Assembly: GCA_016193065.1 (NCBI GenBank)
Contig: JACPSX010000076.1
Span: 1-8,521 of the forward strand
Direction: 5' to 3'
DNA length: 8,521 bases
Source: Candidatus Tectimicrobiota bacterium
GTDB lineage: Bacteria > JACPSX01
Below the pieces are notes generated by a model. The model searched no databases. It saw only the letters and a program-made list of their open reading frames with translations, and had not been told where the DNA came from. Positions 1,293 through 8,354 of the stretch are shown here, one piece after another. Positions within the stretch are counted from its first letter, which is position 1; each line of letters opens with the position of its first letter. The position numbers were made by a program, and so were the translations under genes.

Positions 1293-4200
1293 ATGGCCTC
1301 AACCAGTTCTATCAGCGGCCTGGCCTCCGGGATTGACTGGGCCAACATCGTCGATCAGATCATCGCAGTCGAACACCGCCGGATCGACGTGGTCATCGGG
1401 AATCAGAATCAATACAATAACAAGCTTTCCGAATGGAAAAAAGTAAACACCCAGCTCCTGTCGCTGCGCACCAAAGCAGACACCTTGAGGACAGCGGACA
1501 CCTTTAACGTCTTCCAGAACACGGTGACCGGCTCTTCCAGCACAGATCCAGCCAAGCTCCTCTCCGTTTCCGCCTCGACCGAGGCTGCGCCCGGAGTGCA
1601 CACCATTGAAATGTCCTCTACTTCCACCCTGGCCCAGGCCCGGAAGGTTTCCTCGAAAAGTTATAGCTCGAGCAGCACTGCGCTGAGCCTCTCGGGAGAC
1701 ATTCTCATTAACGGCAAGGCAATTAACATCGCCTCCACGGACACCCTTAGCGACATCAAGAGCAAGATCAACGCGGCCAACTCCGGCAGCAGCGCCACCG
1801 GGGTCACGGCGACGCTCCTGACCGTATCGTCCACGGACAACCGCCTGGTCCTGACCAGCGACGTGACGGGCCTGAACCAGTTCAGCATCCTGGACGCCAG
1901 CACTGGGAACGTCCTGCAAAGCCTGGGGATCACGAACAGCACGACGAGCATCAAGAACGCCACGAGCAACGGGGCCCTTTCCGACGAGTTCTCCAGCAGC
2001 GACGTGACGATCCGCAGCTTGCTGGGACTCAATGCCACTCTCAGCTCGACCACCGTGAACATCGGCGGCAACAATGTAACCATCAACCTGGACACCGATA
2101 CCTCCTCCGTCGTGAGCACCACCGAGGATGGGGTGACGAAGTATCAGTTGAAGATCGAGAATACAACCTCTTTCACCGACAGCAACAACATTCTGGAGGC
2201 TTTGGGCGTCCTGGCGGGAAGCCAGTCCTCAGTCAATGAGCTCCAGGCCGGCAGCGTGGCCAATCAGAAGACCAGCGCCGCCGGAGGCGGGGCCGTCACG
2301 GATGGCACCCAGTGGAACCAGATCAATACCGGGGGAGACGCCAACAACATCGCCCTCAACGACACGATTACGATCACCGGGACCAAACACGACGGCACCG
2401 CCGTCTCCAGCACGTTCACCATTGCGAACCTAGCCCAGGCGCTGAACGCGGGCAGCGGGTTCCTGGAGACCATCGAGACGGCCTTCGGCGGCGGCGCCGC
2501 CGTGGACGCCTACATCAGCGACGGGACCGACGGGAACACGGCGGGCCAGATCGTGGTGAAGGACCTCACGGCCGGCGACAGCCAGCTCACCGTGAGTCTG
2601 GTGGCCAACAACGAAGGCGGAGGCAGCCTGAACTTCGGCACGGTGGCCGCGTCTACGCAGGGCTACAGCATGCAGGTCACGGCCGGGCAGGACGCCAACG
2701 TCAAGGTCAACGGGGTGACCCTCACCCGCAGCAGCAACACAATCACGGATGCCATCGACGGCTTGACTCTGAACCTTTTGAAAATCGAGGCTGGGACCAC
2801 GTTGACCCTCAACGTATCCCGGGATACGGCCGCCATACAGGCCAGCGTTCAAAGCTTGTTGGACGATTACAATAGTTTCATCAGTTACGTGAACACTCAG
2901 TTCACCTATGACGAGAACACCAAGTCCTCAGGGATTCTCGGAGGAGACACCACGTTGTCCTCCGTCAAGTTCAGCACGATTTCTCTCCTTCCCACGACGT
3001 TGAATGCGTTTTCTTTAATTGGAATCAATTCGGACAAGACCGGCCTGCTTTCCATCGACTCCAGCGACTTTCTCAGCTCGCTGCAAAGCGATTTTAACGG
3101 GGTCAAGCGCATCTTCGTGGCCGAAGGCACCACGACCAGCGGGGAAGTAACATATCTGAGCCACACGACAAACTCCAAGGCGGGCGATTACGCGGTCAAC
3201 GTCACCCAGGTCGCCACCCAGGCGGCAACCACCGGGGTAAAAAGCCTGCTCAGCGGTATCGGGGCGGGCCAGACCGAAACCCTGCGCATTACCGATACGC
3301 TCACCGGCCGCATTGCGACTGTGGCGTTGAACGGAGACGCGGGAGAAAACGGCAGCAGTATTGACAACATCGTCAACGCCGTGAACTCGGAATTCCAGAC
3401 CCAGTATGCCCAAAAACTGGTCGGGAGCGTGGCGAACGTCCAGATCAGCGATGCTCAGCCCATCACCAGCAATACGGAGTGGAGCGACATCGACGCCAGC
3501 CTGCAGGACGGTGACGTGATCTCCTTTACGGGCACCTACCGCACCGGCCAGACGGTGAGCGGGAGCTACACGATCAGTGACACAGCCACCGATACGGCGC
3601 AAGGTTTTCTATCCGCCGTACAAACCGCCTTTAATAACGAGGTGTCCGCCACCATCAACGCTTCGGGAAAACTCGTCATCACCGACGTGGCGGACGGGGA
3701 CAGCAACACTTCCATCTCCATCACCGAGCCCACAGGGGGGGGCCGGACTCTTGATTTCGGAACAGTAACCACTTCCAACAGCGGGGGGGTGGTGGGCCGC
3801 TATGCCCTGGAAATCACCGCCTCCAAGGACGGCAGCAACCAGTTGGTCCTGACCCACAATCTCTACGGCAGCGCGAACGGTTTCACGATCGCCCAAGTCT
3901 CCAACCCGGGAACCACCAATAAAGAAATCCTCATCGGCAGCCAAGCGAACACCCAAGTGGCCCCCCCAGGAGTCCTCACCAGCTTGACCGCGTTTGACAA
4001 CATCACGGGTTATACAGCCAACACGTCGGATACGATCACGATCAGCGGCAAGGACCACAGCGGCACTACCATCACTCCCGTGGTTTTCAGCGTACATACC
4101 GGAGCCGCCTACAAGACCGTACAGGATTTCCTGACGGCAATCGAGGGCGCCTTCAGCCTGACAGCAGGAAGCGCCACGGTGGACGGCTCGGGAAAGATCG

Positions 4201-4667
4201 TGATCACGGACAGCACCACGGGATCTAGCCAGCTCGCCATGACCCTGACCCCGCCGACCGGTCTGAACTTCGGCACCTTCGCATCCCAAAATACGGGTCT
4301 CAGCAACGGCAGCTCCAGCGGCCAGAACGTTGCAGGAACCATCAACGGGGAAGCCGCCACGGGAGTCGGTCAAGTCCTCACGGGAGACGAGCCGCCCAGC
4401 GAAGGAGGAACCGGGGAACTGTTGTACCGGGAACTAGATTCCCTCACCGATCCCCTAGAGGGCTACGTGACCACGCGCATTGACGGTCTCCAGGATACCG
4501 TGACCGACTTGCAAACGCAGATTGACGCGATGGAGGCCCAACTGGCCCTGGAAAAGAACAGATTAACCAACCAGTTCATCGTCATGGAAAGCGTCATGAG
4601 CCGGATGAAGACATTGAGCAACTGGCTCGCTCAACAAACCGGCAGCCTCACACAGCTCTTCCGGTAG
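1293..4667 (+). CDS. fliD: FliD filament cap protein, greatly enlarged
   Basis: Hook-associated protein 2, which forms the cap at the filament tip and guides flagellin folding and insertion. FliD_N is at about 5-110 (SISGLASGIDWANIVDQII). A head-type beta region follows to about 310. The FliD_C domain begins at about 465 (DANVKVNGV), runs through DYNSFISYVN and GINSDKTGLLSID, and stops at about 612. It resumes only at about 1040-1124 with DPLEGYVTTRIDGLQ and a coiled coil at about 1063-1097. The 425-residue insertion and the region before it carry three copies of one module: 320-456, 711-831 and 882-1002. At 1124 residues it is about twice the usual 450-700. The ATG at 1293 follows AAGGGG (1279-1284) by 8 bases. 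The frame is intact throughout, with no sign of decay. The family call is firm; the function of the extra domains is unknown, and surface exposure at the flagellar tip is inferred from FliD structure. Confidence 0.93.
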   Translation: MASTSSISGLASGIDWANIVDQIIAVEHRRIDVVIGNQNQYNNKLSEWKKVNTQLLSLRTKADTLRTADTFNVFQNTVTGSSSTDPAKLLSVSASTEAAPGVHTIEMSSTSTLAQARKVSSKSYSSSSTALSLSGDILINGKAINIASTDTLSDIKSKINAANSGSSATGVTATLLTVSSTDNRLVLTSDVTGLNQFSILDASTGNVLQSLGITNSTTSIKNATSNGALSDEFSSSDVTIRSLLGLNATLSSTTVNIGGNNVTINLDTDTSSVVSTTEDGVTKYQLKIENTTSFTDSNNILEALGVLAGSQSSVNELQAGSVANQKTSAAGGGAVTDGTQWNQINTGGDANNIALNDTITITGTKHDGTAVSSTFTIANLAQALNAGSGFLETIETAFGGGAAVDAYISDGTDGNTAGQIVVKDLTAGDSQLTVSLVANNEGGGSLNFGTVAASTQGYSMQVTAGQDANVKVNGVTLTRSSNTITDAIDGLTLNLLKIEAGTTLTLNVSRDTAAIQASVQSLLDDYNSFISYVNTQFTYDENTKSSGILGGDTTLSSVKFSTISLLPTTLNAFSLIGINSDKTGLLSIDSSDFLSSLQSDFNGVKRIFVAEGTTTSGEVTYLSHTTNSKAGDYAVNVTQVATQAATTGVKSLLSGIGAGQTETLRITDTLTGRIATVALNGDAGENGSSIDNIVNAVNSEFQTQYAQKLVGSVANVQISDAQPITSNTEWSDIDASLQDGDVISFTGTYRTGQTVSGSYTISDTATDTAQGFLSAVQTAFNNEVSATINASGKLVITDVADGDSNTSISITEPTGGGRTLDFGTVTTSNSGGVVGRYALEITASKDGSNQLVLTHNLYGSANGFTIAQVSNPGTTNKEILIGSQANTQVAPPGVLTSLTAFDNITGYTANTSDTITISGKDHSGTTITPVVFSVHTGAAYKTVQDFLTAIEGAFSLTAGSATVDGSGKIVITDSTTGSSQLAMTLTPPTGLNFGTFASQNTGLSNGSSSGQNVAGTINGEAATGVGQVLTGDEPPSEGGTGELLYRELDSLTDPLEGYVTTRIDGLQDTVTDLQTQIDAMEAQLALEKNRLTNQFIVMESVMSRMKTLSNWLAQQTGSLTQLFR
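2250..2660 (+). repeat. FliD internal module, copy A (residues 320-456)
   Basis: First and longest copy (137 residues), lying just before FliD_C. Anchors shared with the other copies, in order: GSVAN (320-324), W341, DTITITG (357-363) with HDGTAV (366-371), FLETIETAF (390-398), IVVKDLTAGDSQL (420-432), LNFGTV (446-451). It is longer than B and C, mainly through a loop around 399-418. Predicted to be mostly beta strands with one helix (FLETIETAF). Confidence 0.85.
3423..3785 (+). repeat. FliD internal module, copy B (residues 711-831)
   Basis: Second copy, 121 residues, inside the segment that splits FliD_C. Anchors: GSVAN (711-715), W730, DVISFTG (741-747), FLSAVQTAF (772-780), LVITDVADGDS (794-804), LDFGTV (820-825). 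It is embedded in a head-like unit, with YAVNVTQVATQ (633-643) before it and YALEIT (837-842) after it. Confidence 0.85.
3735..3967 (+). repeat. Cluster of three G/C homopolymer runs in fliD
   Basis: G8 at 3735-3742, G7 at 3783-3789 and C7 at 3961-3967, all within the fliD coding frame around the end of module B and start of module C. By eye these are the only G or C runs of seven or more in the window; elsewhere the longest are six. The frame is on in this sequence. Confidence 0.8.
3936..4298 (+). repeat. FliD internal module, copy C (residues 882-1002)
   Basis: Third copy, the same 121-residue length as B between the same anchors: GSQAN (882-886), F901 in place of Trp, DTITISG (913-919) with HSGTTI (922-927), FLTAIEGAF (946-954), IVITDSTTGSSQL (969-981), LNFGTF (991-996). 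A Gly/Ser-rich linker (about 1003-1040) then joins it to the end of FliD_C. At the DNA level, the 39 bases starting at 4029 match those starting at 2361 at about 28 positions, so A and C are related but well diverged. Confidence 0.85.
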
Positions 4668-5841: not shown

Positions 5842-5868
5842 AGGAAGGGGTAAGTGGAACCCCTTCTT
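5842..5868 (+). other. Hairpin at the predicted 5' end of the cyclase mRNA
   Basis: GAAGGGG (5844-5850) pairs with CCCCTTC (5860-5866) around a nine-base loop, and can extend by one G-U and one A-U pair. It begins at about the predicted transcription start and ends two bases before the ribosome binding site. Such a terminal stem can stabilise mRNA or modulate ribosome access. It also buries the alternative GTG at 5854. Confidence 0.6.
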
Positions 5869-5869
5869 C

Positions 5870-5877
5870 AGAGGAGG
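5870..5877 (+). promoter_or_regulatory. Ribosome binding site deciding the cyclase start
   Basis: AGAGGAGG, six bases before the GTG at 5884. This is the best Shine-Dalgarno match near the gene and supports GTG 5884 over the in-frame GTG 5854, which would lie about ten bases from the predicted transcription start. Confidence 0.8.
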
Positions 5878-5883
5878 CAACCC

Positions 5884-7455
5884 GTGGCAGGCGAAAGGGT
5901 TCTCGTCGTTGATCCAGATCCAGGTCAACTGGCACAGATCGAATCCCACCTGCAGGCCAAAGGGTACCACGTGACCCTGGAGCGAAATGGCACGAGAGCC
6001 CTCCACTTGCTTCGGGAACATACTTTCGATCTCCTCTTAAGCGAACTCGATCTCCCGGGAGCAAGTGGCCTCCAGCTCCTGGAAGAGGCGCAGAGCCTCG
6101 GCACCCATAGCTGTGTCATATTGATGGCTAAAACACCCCCGGTGGAGGTGGTCATTGCGACGCTGCAAAAGGGGGCTTACAGCCTGCTGCGCAAGCCTCT
6201 GAACTTCATGGCCCTGGAAGCCACCCTGGAAAAGGGGCTGGAGAACCGGCAGGCATTCTTGGAAATCCTTGGACTGTCGGAAGATCTCAAGCGCGCCAAC
6301 CTGGTTCTCAACGAACAGAAAGAGGAACTGGAGCGCGAGAAGCGCACTCTGGAGGAAAAAATCCGGGAGCTTGATTTTCTCAAAGATCTGAGCAGCGCCA
6401 TCGGCACCACCCTCGATCCCAAGGAAATTGCCCTGGCTGTCTCATCGCGGCTTAAAACGGTGATCCCTTACGATTTGTTCCTGCTGTCCTGCACCTTGGA
6501 AAAAGGCGCCGTCCTGTTCCTGGATTCCGGCCTTCCACTGCCGCCCGCCCTGGGGAGCCAAATCAGGGCCCAGGCGCTGCAGGATCTAGCCACTCTAACC
6601 GGTTACCTATGCCGGGCGGGGGAGGAAATCCAGGTGGAAGCCCTCCGGGGAGACCCCTTCCAGGACAACGGAGCCCATTCCTATGGCTCGGAACGGGCGA
6701 TGGAATGCAAGATCGTTCTTTCCCTGGCCCAGAAACCTGTCGGGGTCTTAAACCTGATCAATTTCGAGGGGAAACCCTACGGCAACGACCAGATGGCCCT
6801 TCTTCATACCGTTGCCAACCAGACAGGCTTGGCCCTGAAGAACGCCGAAGAACACCGCAAGGTTCAGGAGATGGCCAATCGGGACAGCCTGACCGGCCTT
6901 TTAAACCACCGCACGTTTCAAGAGATCTTGAAGCGGGAATTCAAGCGCATCCTGCGCTACAAGAAACCTCTAGCCATCGGGATGATCGACATCGATCATC
7001 TCAAGATGGTCAACGACTCCTATGGGCATCCGACGGGAGACCAGGTGCTGCGGGAAATGTCCGCCTTGCTGGAACGCTGCATCCGGGAGACCGATGTTCT
7101 GGCGCGCTACGGGGGAGATGAGTTCGCCCTCCTGCTGCCGGAAACCAACCTGGGGGAGGCCAGGATTCTCGGGGAGCGCATGAGGCGCACGGTTGAGAAT
7201 TTCCCCTTCCGGCTGGAGGGGGGAGAGATTCATATTACGATCAGCCTGGGCATCTCCAGCTACCCCACCCTGGACGTCTCCACGGGCCATGAGTTGATTG
7301 CCAAAGCCGACAAAGCACTTTATAAGTCCAAGCGGGAAGGGCGCAACCGGGTGTCCACGGCGGGCGAAAGCACGGTTGTAATTAAGAACTTCCCGATGGC
7401 CGCCAGCTCTGATTCCAAGCTTCAGGGAGATCTATGGAAATCACGGAACTATTAA
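5884..7455 (+). CDS. Receiver-GAF-GGDEF diguanylate cyclase with degenerate receiver
   Basis: Predicted cytoplasmic diguanylate cyclase (two GTP to c-di-GMP), 523 residues from the GTG at 5884. The receiver (3-120) keeps D10 and K104 but has P11 at the second acidic position, E54 where the phosphorylated Asp should be (SELDLP), and A82 at the conserved Thr/Ser. A coiled-coil linker spans about 130-165. A GAF domain follows (about 165-325). The GGDEF domain (about 330-492) has DSLTGLLNHR (334-343), metal-ligand D369 in MIDID, ND at 377-378, the active-site GGDEF at 410-414, and the inhibitory RxxD (R401-D404) exactly five residues before it, so catalysis and product inhibition should both work. 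A 30-residue tail overlaps the next gene. There are no membrane segments. The GAF ligand cannot be told from sequence. An in-frame GTG at 5854 would add ten residues but is disfavoured. Confidence 0.92.
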   Translation: MAGERVLVVDPDPGQLAQIESHLQAKGYHVTLERNGTRALHLLREHTFDLLLSELDLPGASGLQLLEEAQSLGTHSCVILMAKTPPVEVVIATLQKGAYSLLRKPLNFMALEATLEKGLENRQAFLEILGLSEDLKRANLVLNEQKEELEREKRTLEEKIRELDFLKDLSSAIGTTLDPKEIALAVSSRLKTVIPYDLFLLSCTLEKGAVLFLDSGLPLPPALGSQIRAQALQDLATLTGYLCRAGEEIQVEALRGDPFQDNGAHSYGSERAMECKIVLSLAQKPVGVLNLINFEGKPYGNDQMALLHTVANQTGLALKNAEEHRKVQEMANRDSLTGLLNHRTFQEILKREFKRILRYKKPLAIGMIDIDHLKMVNDSYGHPTGDQVLREMSALLERCIRETDVLARYGGDEFALLLPETNLGEARILGERMRRTVENFPFRLEGGEIHITISLGISSYPTLDVSTGHELIAKADKALYKSKREGRNRVSTAGESTVVIKNFPMAASSDSKLQGDLWKSRNY

Positions 7456-8354
7456 AGGTCGGCCAGCATCTGGACTGTGATCTGGCTCCGGACAGCGAGG
7501 GAGAAGAGCGTTATCCCTGCCAGGTCGCCCACCTGGAACCGGAGAGGCTCCTTCTGACCATTCTCTCGGAAGCCACCCGGACCCCTGCCGTCCTGCCGGA
7601 ATGCGACCTGACCCTGCAAGTCATCAAGGGCCAGGCCCTTTACAGCATCCGGGGCCGGGCAATTTCCTTTGAATTTCCCTATCTCGCCCTGCGCCCGGAG
7701 GGCCCCGCGGAACTGATCCAGAAGAGAAGCTACGTCCGCGTGGAAGACTCCTTCGGCGTGCGCTTCCGCATGCTCGATCCGGAAGAGTACGAGCGCAGAC
7801 GCTACGAATTCGCCAGCCGCGCCAGCAGGCGTGGCGAGGCCCGCTCCCTGCTGGCAACAGACTGGTCCCGGGAACTGCAGGAAACCCTGGGAGAGGAGGC
7901 GGCAGCCGGACTTGAATCGGTCCTGATCAAGATGCTGATCGGCCTCGACCGCAAGCTCGACAAGATCATCGAACTCCTGGAGCGTCCCGAGGGCGAGACG
8001 GGCTTCTTCAAGGGAACCGGAGTCAACATCAGCGGAGCGGGTTTTTACTTTGTGACCGAATCTCCGGTTCGGGTTGGAGGCATGATCGAGGCCGCCCTCG
8101 AACTCACCGTCTTTCCGGGACTGCACCTCATGGCCCTGGGGAAGGCTCTGCGGGTCCGGGAGATCCTGGACTTCCCCGACACCCATCGCCACTTTGAAGT
8201 CGCCGTGGAGTTTACGGACATCCACGAGGACGACCGGGACGAGGTGATCCGCTACACCTTTCGCCGCCAGCGCGAGCTTCTGAGAACCCAACGTCTGAAC
8301 AAGACCGACCTGCAATCCAGCGAGACTTCCATTCCGCAGCAGGACCTTCTCTGA
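7434..8354 (+). CDS. YcgR-like PilZ c-di-GMP receptor with helical insertion
   Basis: A 306-residue predicted cytoplasmic c-di-GMP-binding protein. Residues 5-95 resemble the YcgR N-terminal (PilZN) beta domain (LLKVGQHLDCDL). The PilZ domain starts with the arginine motif KRSYVR (R98 and R102, RxxxR) and has its second motif NISGAG at 198-203 ([D/N]xSxxG), so both nucleotide-binding elements are present. The roughly 90 residues between them are charged and partly helical, ending in LIGLDRKLDKIIELLE (168-183); most PilZ domains have only about 20-30 here. The barrel then continues to about 263 (HFEVAVEFTDI), followed by a helix and polar tail. The ATG at 7434 lies inside the cyclase gene (22-base overlap) with GGGAGA just upstream, so the two are translationally coupled. 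By analogy with YcgR it may act as a flagellar brake or on surface behaviour; the context fits, but the target is unknown. Confidence 0.85.
   Translation: MEITELLKVGQHLDCDLAPDSEGEERYPCQVAHLEPERLLLTILSEATRTPAVLPECDLTLQVIKGQALYSIRGRAISFEFPYLALRPEGPAELIQKRSYVRVEDSFGVRFRMLDPEEYERRRYEFASRASRRGEARSLLATDWSRELQETLGEEAAAGLESVLIKMLIGLDRKLDKIIELLERPEGETGFFKGTGVNISGAGFYFVTESPVRVGGMIEAALELTVFPGLHLMALGKALRVREILDFPDTHRHFEVAVEFTDIHEDDRDEVIRYTFRRQRELLRTQRLNKTDLQSSETSIPQQDLL

Follow-up and report, generated by a model that had tools for sequence, protein, structure and literature searches.

The flagellar cap protein FliD encoded in the analysed DNA contains three copies of one small domain, and we read this module, with a probability of about three in four, as an expanded and diverged outer domain of the IN/D3 type, which axial proteins insert between conserved core segments and which here enlarges the cap. 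Copy A would lengthen the D2-D3 head of FliD, and copies B and C would belong to a D4-like lobe within the region of the D1 helix bundle. The predicted fold of each copy consists of two strands, a helix and three further strands; each copy would sit, folding independently and facing outward, in a loop of the domain that hosts it, leaving the core undisturbed. FliD would have grown through duplication inside fliD-type genes, with A and B as ancient copies and C as a later one. The modules would most likely give the cap a larger outer surface and larger side contacts, either between a cap subunit and its neighbour or between the cap and the outer domains that junction and filament carry. By analogy with known inserts, the role of the module in FliD is probably steric or contact-forming.

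The window is an entire contig of 8521 bp from a fragmentary 2.9-Mb assembly that is 86% complete. Its genes are flagellin (only the end), flaG, fliD, fliS, one resembling flgN, one for a response-regulator/GAF/GGDEF protein and one for a PilZ protein. The gene for the filament cap protein, fliD (1293-4667, + strand), encodes 1124 amino acids with matches to FliD_C (1e-36, 127 bits) and FliD_N (6.6e-16, 59 bits), both exceeding the cut-offs, and to Flagellin_IN (4.9e-5); it is flanked by flaG and fliS in a flagellar gene neighbourhood (flagellin, flaG, fliD, fliS). FliD_C is present in two parts (residues about 465-632 and 1022-1106). The lobe inserted in this D1/FliD_C region (residues about 620-1040, 3150-4412, + strand) contains copies B and C. 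A regular Flagellin_IN motif is located at residues 142-190 (1716-1862, + strand; Pfam PF07196, 23.9 bits with a cut-off of 22.7).

The window FliD also lacks three stretches that are present in other long FliDs, all of them in frame: about 20 residues after residue 269 (window about 2100), corresponding to a helix plus a strand from a second IN-type motif, about 7 residues at residue 566 (window about 2990), and about 26 residues at residues 1037-1042 (window about 4400-4420), comprising a hairpin preceding GVAEL. These could be real deletions or assembly consensus errors, which look alike here. Directly downstream of the flagellar genes, the response-regulator/GAF/GGDEF gene (5854-7455) overlaps the start of the PilZ-domain gene (7434-8354), which suggests a maker and a reader of c-di-GMP within one unit.

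Copy A (residues 320-456; 2250-2660, + strand) closes the D2-D3 head region and directly precedes GYSMQVTAGQDA. Copy B (residues 711-831; 3423-3785, + strand) lies within the large insert splitting FliD_C, and copy C (residues 882-1002; 3936-4298, + strand) is inserted between GFTIxxx and NVAGTINGE. An earlier note, made from the letters of this DNA, had placed the three copies at these positions, with one outside the split FliD_C and two inside, and both statements are correct. The copies share 35-37% pairwise identity. BLASTP aligned A with B at E 4e-19/4e-20, B with C at 3e-18 and A with C at 6e-15/8e-16, and composition-preserving shuffles gave z values of 15.8, 16.0 and 12.9, respectively. 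These comparisons confirm at the sequence level that the three are diverged, homologous repeats of one small domain. The ordered anchors described in the earlier note are present in that order, but the exact strings need small relaxations, since copy B has DVISFTG for DTITI(T/S)G as well as FLSAVQTAF, in which V replaces I. Its claim that B and C have the same lengths between anchors was wrong: the intervals are 18-12-31-20-28 in B and 18-13-33-21-24 in C, and only the first of them and the total from GS to LxFGT (109) are equal. A search of the 86%-complete source assembly with the three-copy profile revealed these three copies only.

No Pfam family covers the module. The three-copy profile matched the FliD of a Deltaproteobacteria assembly (L006, with three copies), of a Nitrospinae assembly (L007, whose contig is apparently identical to one in G086) and of others, as well as FlgE. 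When 386 deeply sampled genomes, mostly of different families, were surveyed in six frames with a profile of 14 copies, 35 of them contained the module. All 35 host proteins examined, the window FliD included, look like axial flagellar proteins: about 14 are FliD, 13 are FlgE and 8 have flagellin-type ends (FlgL or flagellin). The weakest matches, mainly FlgL and flagellin, had per-genome E values of about 1e-4 to 1e-9. Profiles made from FliD copies only and from FlgE copies only match each other with a probability of 99.6 (E 9e-25, 106 columns); this match is not fully independent, because the FlgE copies used were found with a profile already containing two FlgE copies, but the first FlgE matches came from the profile of the window's three copies alone. 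Furthermore, an FlgL model from NCBIfam matches 13 of 23 copies, the best of them at 2.8e-9. PHROGs contained no consistent family for the module; the best match was 2.5e-4, to a family matched by 2 of the 23 copies.

In the FlgE of the source genome (797 aa; L110:3410-5803, - strand; G000 contig C35) no copy of the module was found at the sequence level. This protein carries repeated inserts of its own: E1 (about 212-300) and E2 (about 329-413) share 47% identity (E 6e-16), and a diverged E3 follows. The inserts E1-E3 gave no sequence match to the module profile and a weak one in profile comparison (probability 43).

The AlphaFold model of copy B, based on an alignment of eight copies, reached a pLDDT of 84 and a pTM of 0.79 and shows the order strand-strand-helix-strand-strand-strand. 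The same order was seen for copies A and C in a model of the full-length FliD, which is poor (pLDDT 40) and unusable for domain placement. The structural neighbours of copy B are led by flagellar outer domains of FlgL, flagellin (D2), FlgK and FliD (D3). The best match was 9gsx_A (Z 7.2, 113 residues, rmsd 2.7), followed by FliC of P. aeruginosa (4nx9, Z 6.3), FlgK (5xbj, 5.6) and FliD D3 (5h5v/5xlj, 5.5-5.6); all Z values are below 8, where unrelated folds are found too. With Z values of only 5 to 7 the fold match alone is no proof; it is strengthened by the agreeing sequence match to FlgL. Phage sheath and neck proteins (9c39, 8kee, 9cuy) also matched the model of copy B with Z values of about 5, similar to FliD D3, a resemblance of predicted folds that may reflect merely a common arrangement. 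A viral structure library yielded no module match at E 0.001 or better.

The sequence match to FlgL concerns the same protein chain that heads the structural matches. While a PDB search with the three-copy profile returned nothing, the 23-copy profile matched 9gsx_A with an E value of 6e-9. The start of this chain, named flagellin by its depositors, matches FlgL proteins, and the accompanying paper assigns an 11-subunit layer to Campylobacter jejuni FlgL with a bulky D2 domain (PMC12221982). The profile match to this D2 is best at 251-323 and weaker at 547-597, and the structural match lies at 427-620. FlgL is a junction protein, whereas the host of the module here is the cap. Since FlgE and Campylobacter FlgL both contain the module, the statement in the earlier note that similar segments occur in hook and hook-associated proteins has been borne out.

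The module was also compared with the IN motif and FliD D3. Compared by hhalign, the module and Flagellin_IN scored 38.2, above the maximum of 23.7 (mean 9.4) among 300 column shuffles and above 10.9 for the reversed profile, with the shuffle control run on trimmed columns and the IN motifs taken from other genomes; the score rises to 50 with all copies. The similarity covers strand-helix-strand-strand, and the strand-strand-helix-strand-strand order of the IN motif is found in the model of copy B; the regular IN motif of the window FliD has the same order in the low-confidence full-length model. No single copy reached the PF07196 cut-off, and only one of 14 matched at all (E 0.55); in addition, the module is about twice as long as the motif, with a GSxAN start and an LxFGT end of its own. 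Because the profile-profile score lies above the shuffles, we regard the core of the module as distantly related to the Flagellin_IN motif, yet not as a member of PF07196. FliD D3 (E. coli 5h5v, Serratia 5xlj), in the same host protein, may have a similar fold, as judged by the match over 94-98 residues, but shows only 13-15% identity, and the module copies are additional to the D2-D3 unit. Thus, with a predicted fold that resembles the protein's own D3 and a core that resembles the IN motif already present, the module would not be alien to FliD.

Copy B itself appears to interrupt an IN-type motif after the helix of the latter, since IN profile matches in orthologues flank B on both sides (G091, G360) or span the site with B omitted (G144). 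The left half would comprise residues about 660-709 (3270-3419, + strand), as judged by profile matches in the orthologues G091, G360 and G144; in the window protein itself it gave no significant profile match. The right half (residues about 836-870; 3798-3902, + strand) corresponds to IN profile positions 46-73 and scores 9.7 bits (E 0.2) alone in the window FliD, with a stronger match in G091.

Inserted outer domains are a known kind of thing in axial proteins. FlgE has hypervariable D3/D4 inserts, likewise in its outer domain; the D3 inserts of Campylobacter and Caulobacter FlgE differ in fold, a Salmonella strain with Campylobacter FlgE D3-D4 is motile, and FlgE D2 tolerates large inserts (PMC5069557). 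The module profile did not match the Campylobacter and Caulobacter D3 inserts in the PDB search. In Campylobacter FliD, domain D4 is inserted in the D1 bundle and, in the complex of cap and junction, has D3 on one side and FlgL on the other; inserts of this type have been described as not unusual (PMC7316729, PMC12221982). The module gave no sequence match to that FliD in the PDB search. The lobe holding copies B and C has an analogous position, and a postulated heparin binding of D4 (PMC7316729) raises the possibility that the copies are adhesion domains that bind surface polymers or other molecules. Their repetition would raise avidity. We consider such a ligand-binding role unlikely: no binding motif was identified, and in FlgE the same module is carried by the hook, a structure not known as an adhesin.

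To compare the sites of the copies, seven long FliDs carrying the module were aligned with two short FliDs, whose open frames are 476 and 505 aa long, from the phylum of the carrier G091. The short proteins contain neither the module nor the lobe, in agreement with the proposal that the module is not part of the minimal FliD fold. The sites of copies A and B are common to all seven long FliDs (the copy A site was found in L006, L007/G086, G047, G360, G091, G144 and G333 in addition to the window). Copy C is present at its site solely in the window FliD among the FliDs aligned, and L006 has a third copy of its own directly behind B. In a tree of module sequences, the A copies of the window, L006 and G086 group together (100/99), seven B-type copies form another group (97/94) that includes the third copy of L006, and window copy C is placed weakly beside the A-type copies (82/24); a constraint placing C within the B group is not rejected (p 0.315). 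The FlgE copies mostly group with each other, with weak support. Sites and tree together point to copies A and B as ancient and kept in place across distant lineages, with the phyla of G000, G086 and G047 represented by one or two genomes each in the comparison set, and to copy C as a later addition in the window's lineage.

This history bears on the proposal of the earlier note that the module is a mobile decoration domain of flagellar surface proteins, that is, a coding segment travelling from one lineage to another and among the genes fliD, flgE and flgL. The part that stands is that one family occurs in several axial proteins, FliD, FlgE and FlgL. Gains at new sites were indeed seen, as copy C in the window FliD and as the third copy in L006, and the patchy presence in 35 of 386 genomes would fit movement too. 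However, A and B are mostly inherited in place, because their sites are constant and their sequences fall into orthologous groups even between distant lineages. The clustering of FlgE copies, although weakly supported, also argues against movement; no genome was found with the same copy in two genes, and the FlgE of the source genome is without a copy at the sequence level. Mobility in this sense is therefore improbable. A bolder version, in which the module is an exchangeable cassette that was moved between fliD, flgE and flgL across lineages and repeatedly entered certain loops, strikes us as quite doubtful; if true, it would provide a general mechanism for diversifying the flagellar outer surface. 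A recent triplication of all three copies within this single lineage would fit own-genome profile matches that fall in fliD only but is rejected as extremely unlikely, since A and B are each nearer to counterparts in other organisms than to their neighbours and a constraint forcing window A, B and C into one clade is rejected (p 0.0007). That the copies resemble each other by chance, FliD being a secreted, Ser/Thr/Gly-rich protein with many small polar residues, has practically no probability left, as composition-preserving shuffles fall 13-16 SD lower and the profile recovers the same domain in independent genomes.

Being related to a building block already known from flagella, the module is an unnamed branch of a familiar flagellar part and not a foreign one. 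No description of a module family linking FliD, FlgE and FlgL, or of its three-copy repetition, was found in the open-access literature. The domain family, missing from Pfam, gives inserts of cap, hook and junction proteins one ancestry, so that flagellar outer domains, variable as they are, may be less independent of each other than it seems. In addition, copy B within an IN-type motif is an example of a domain lodged in a related motif. Together with third copies gained separately in two lineages, this case makes the growth of large caps traceable.
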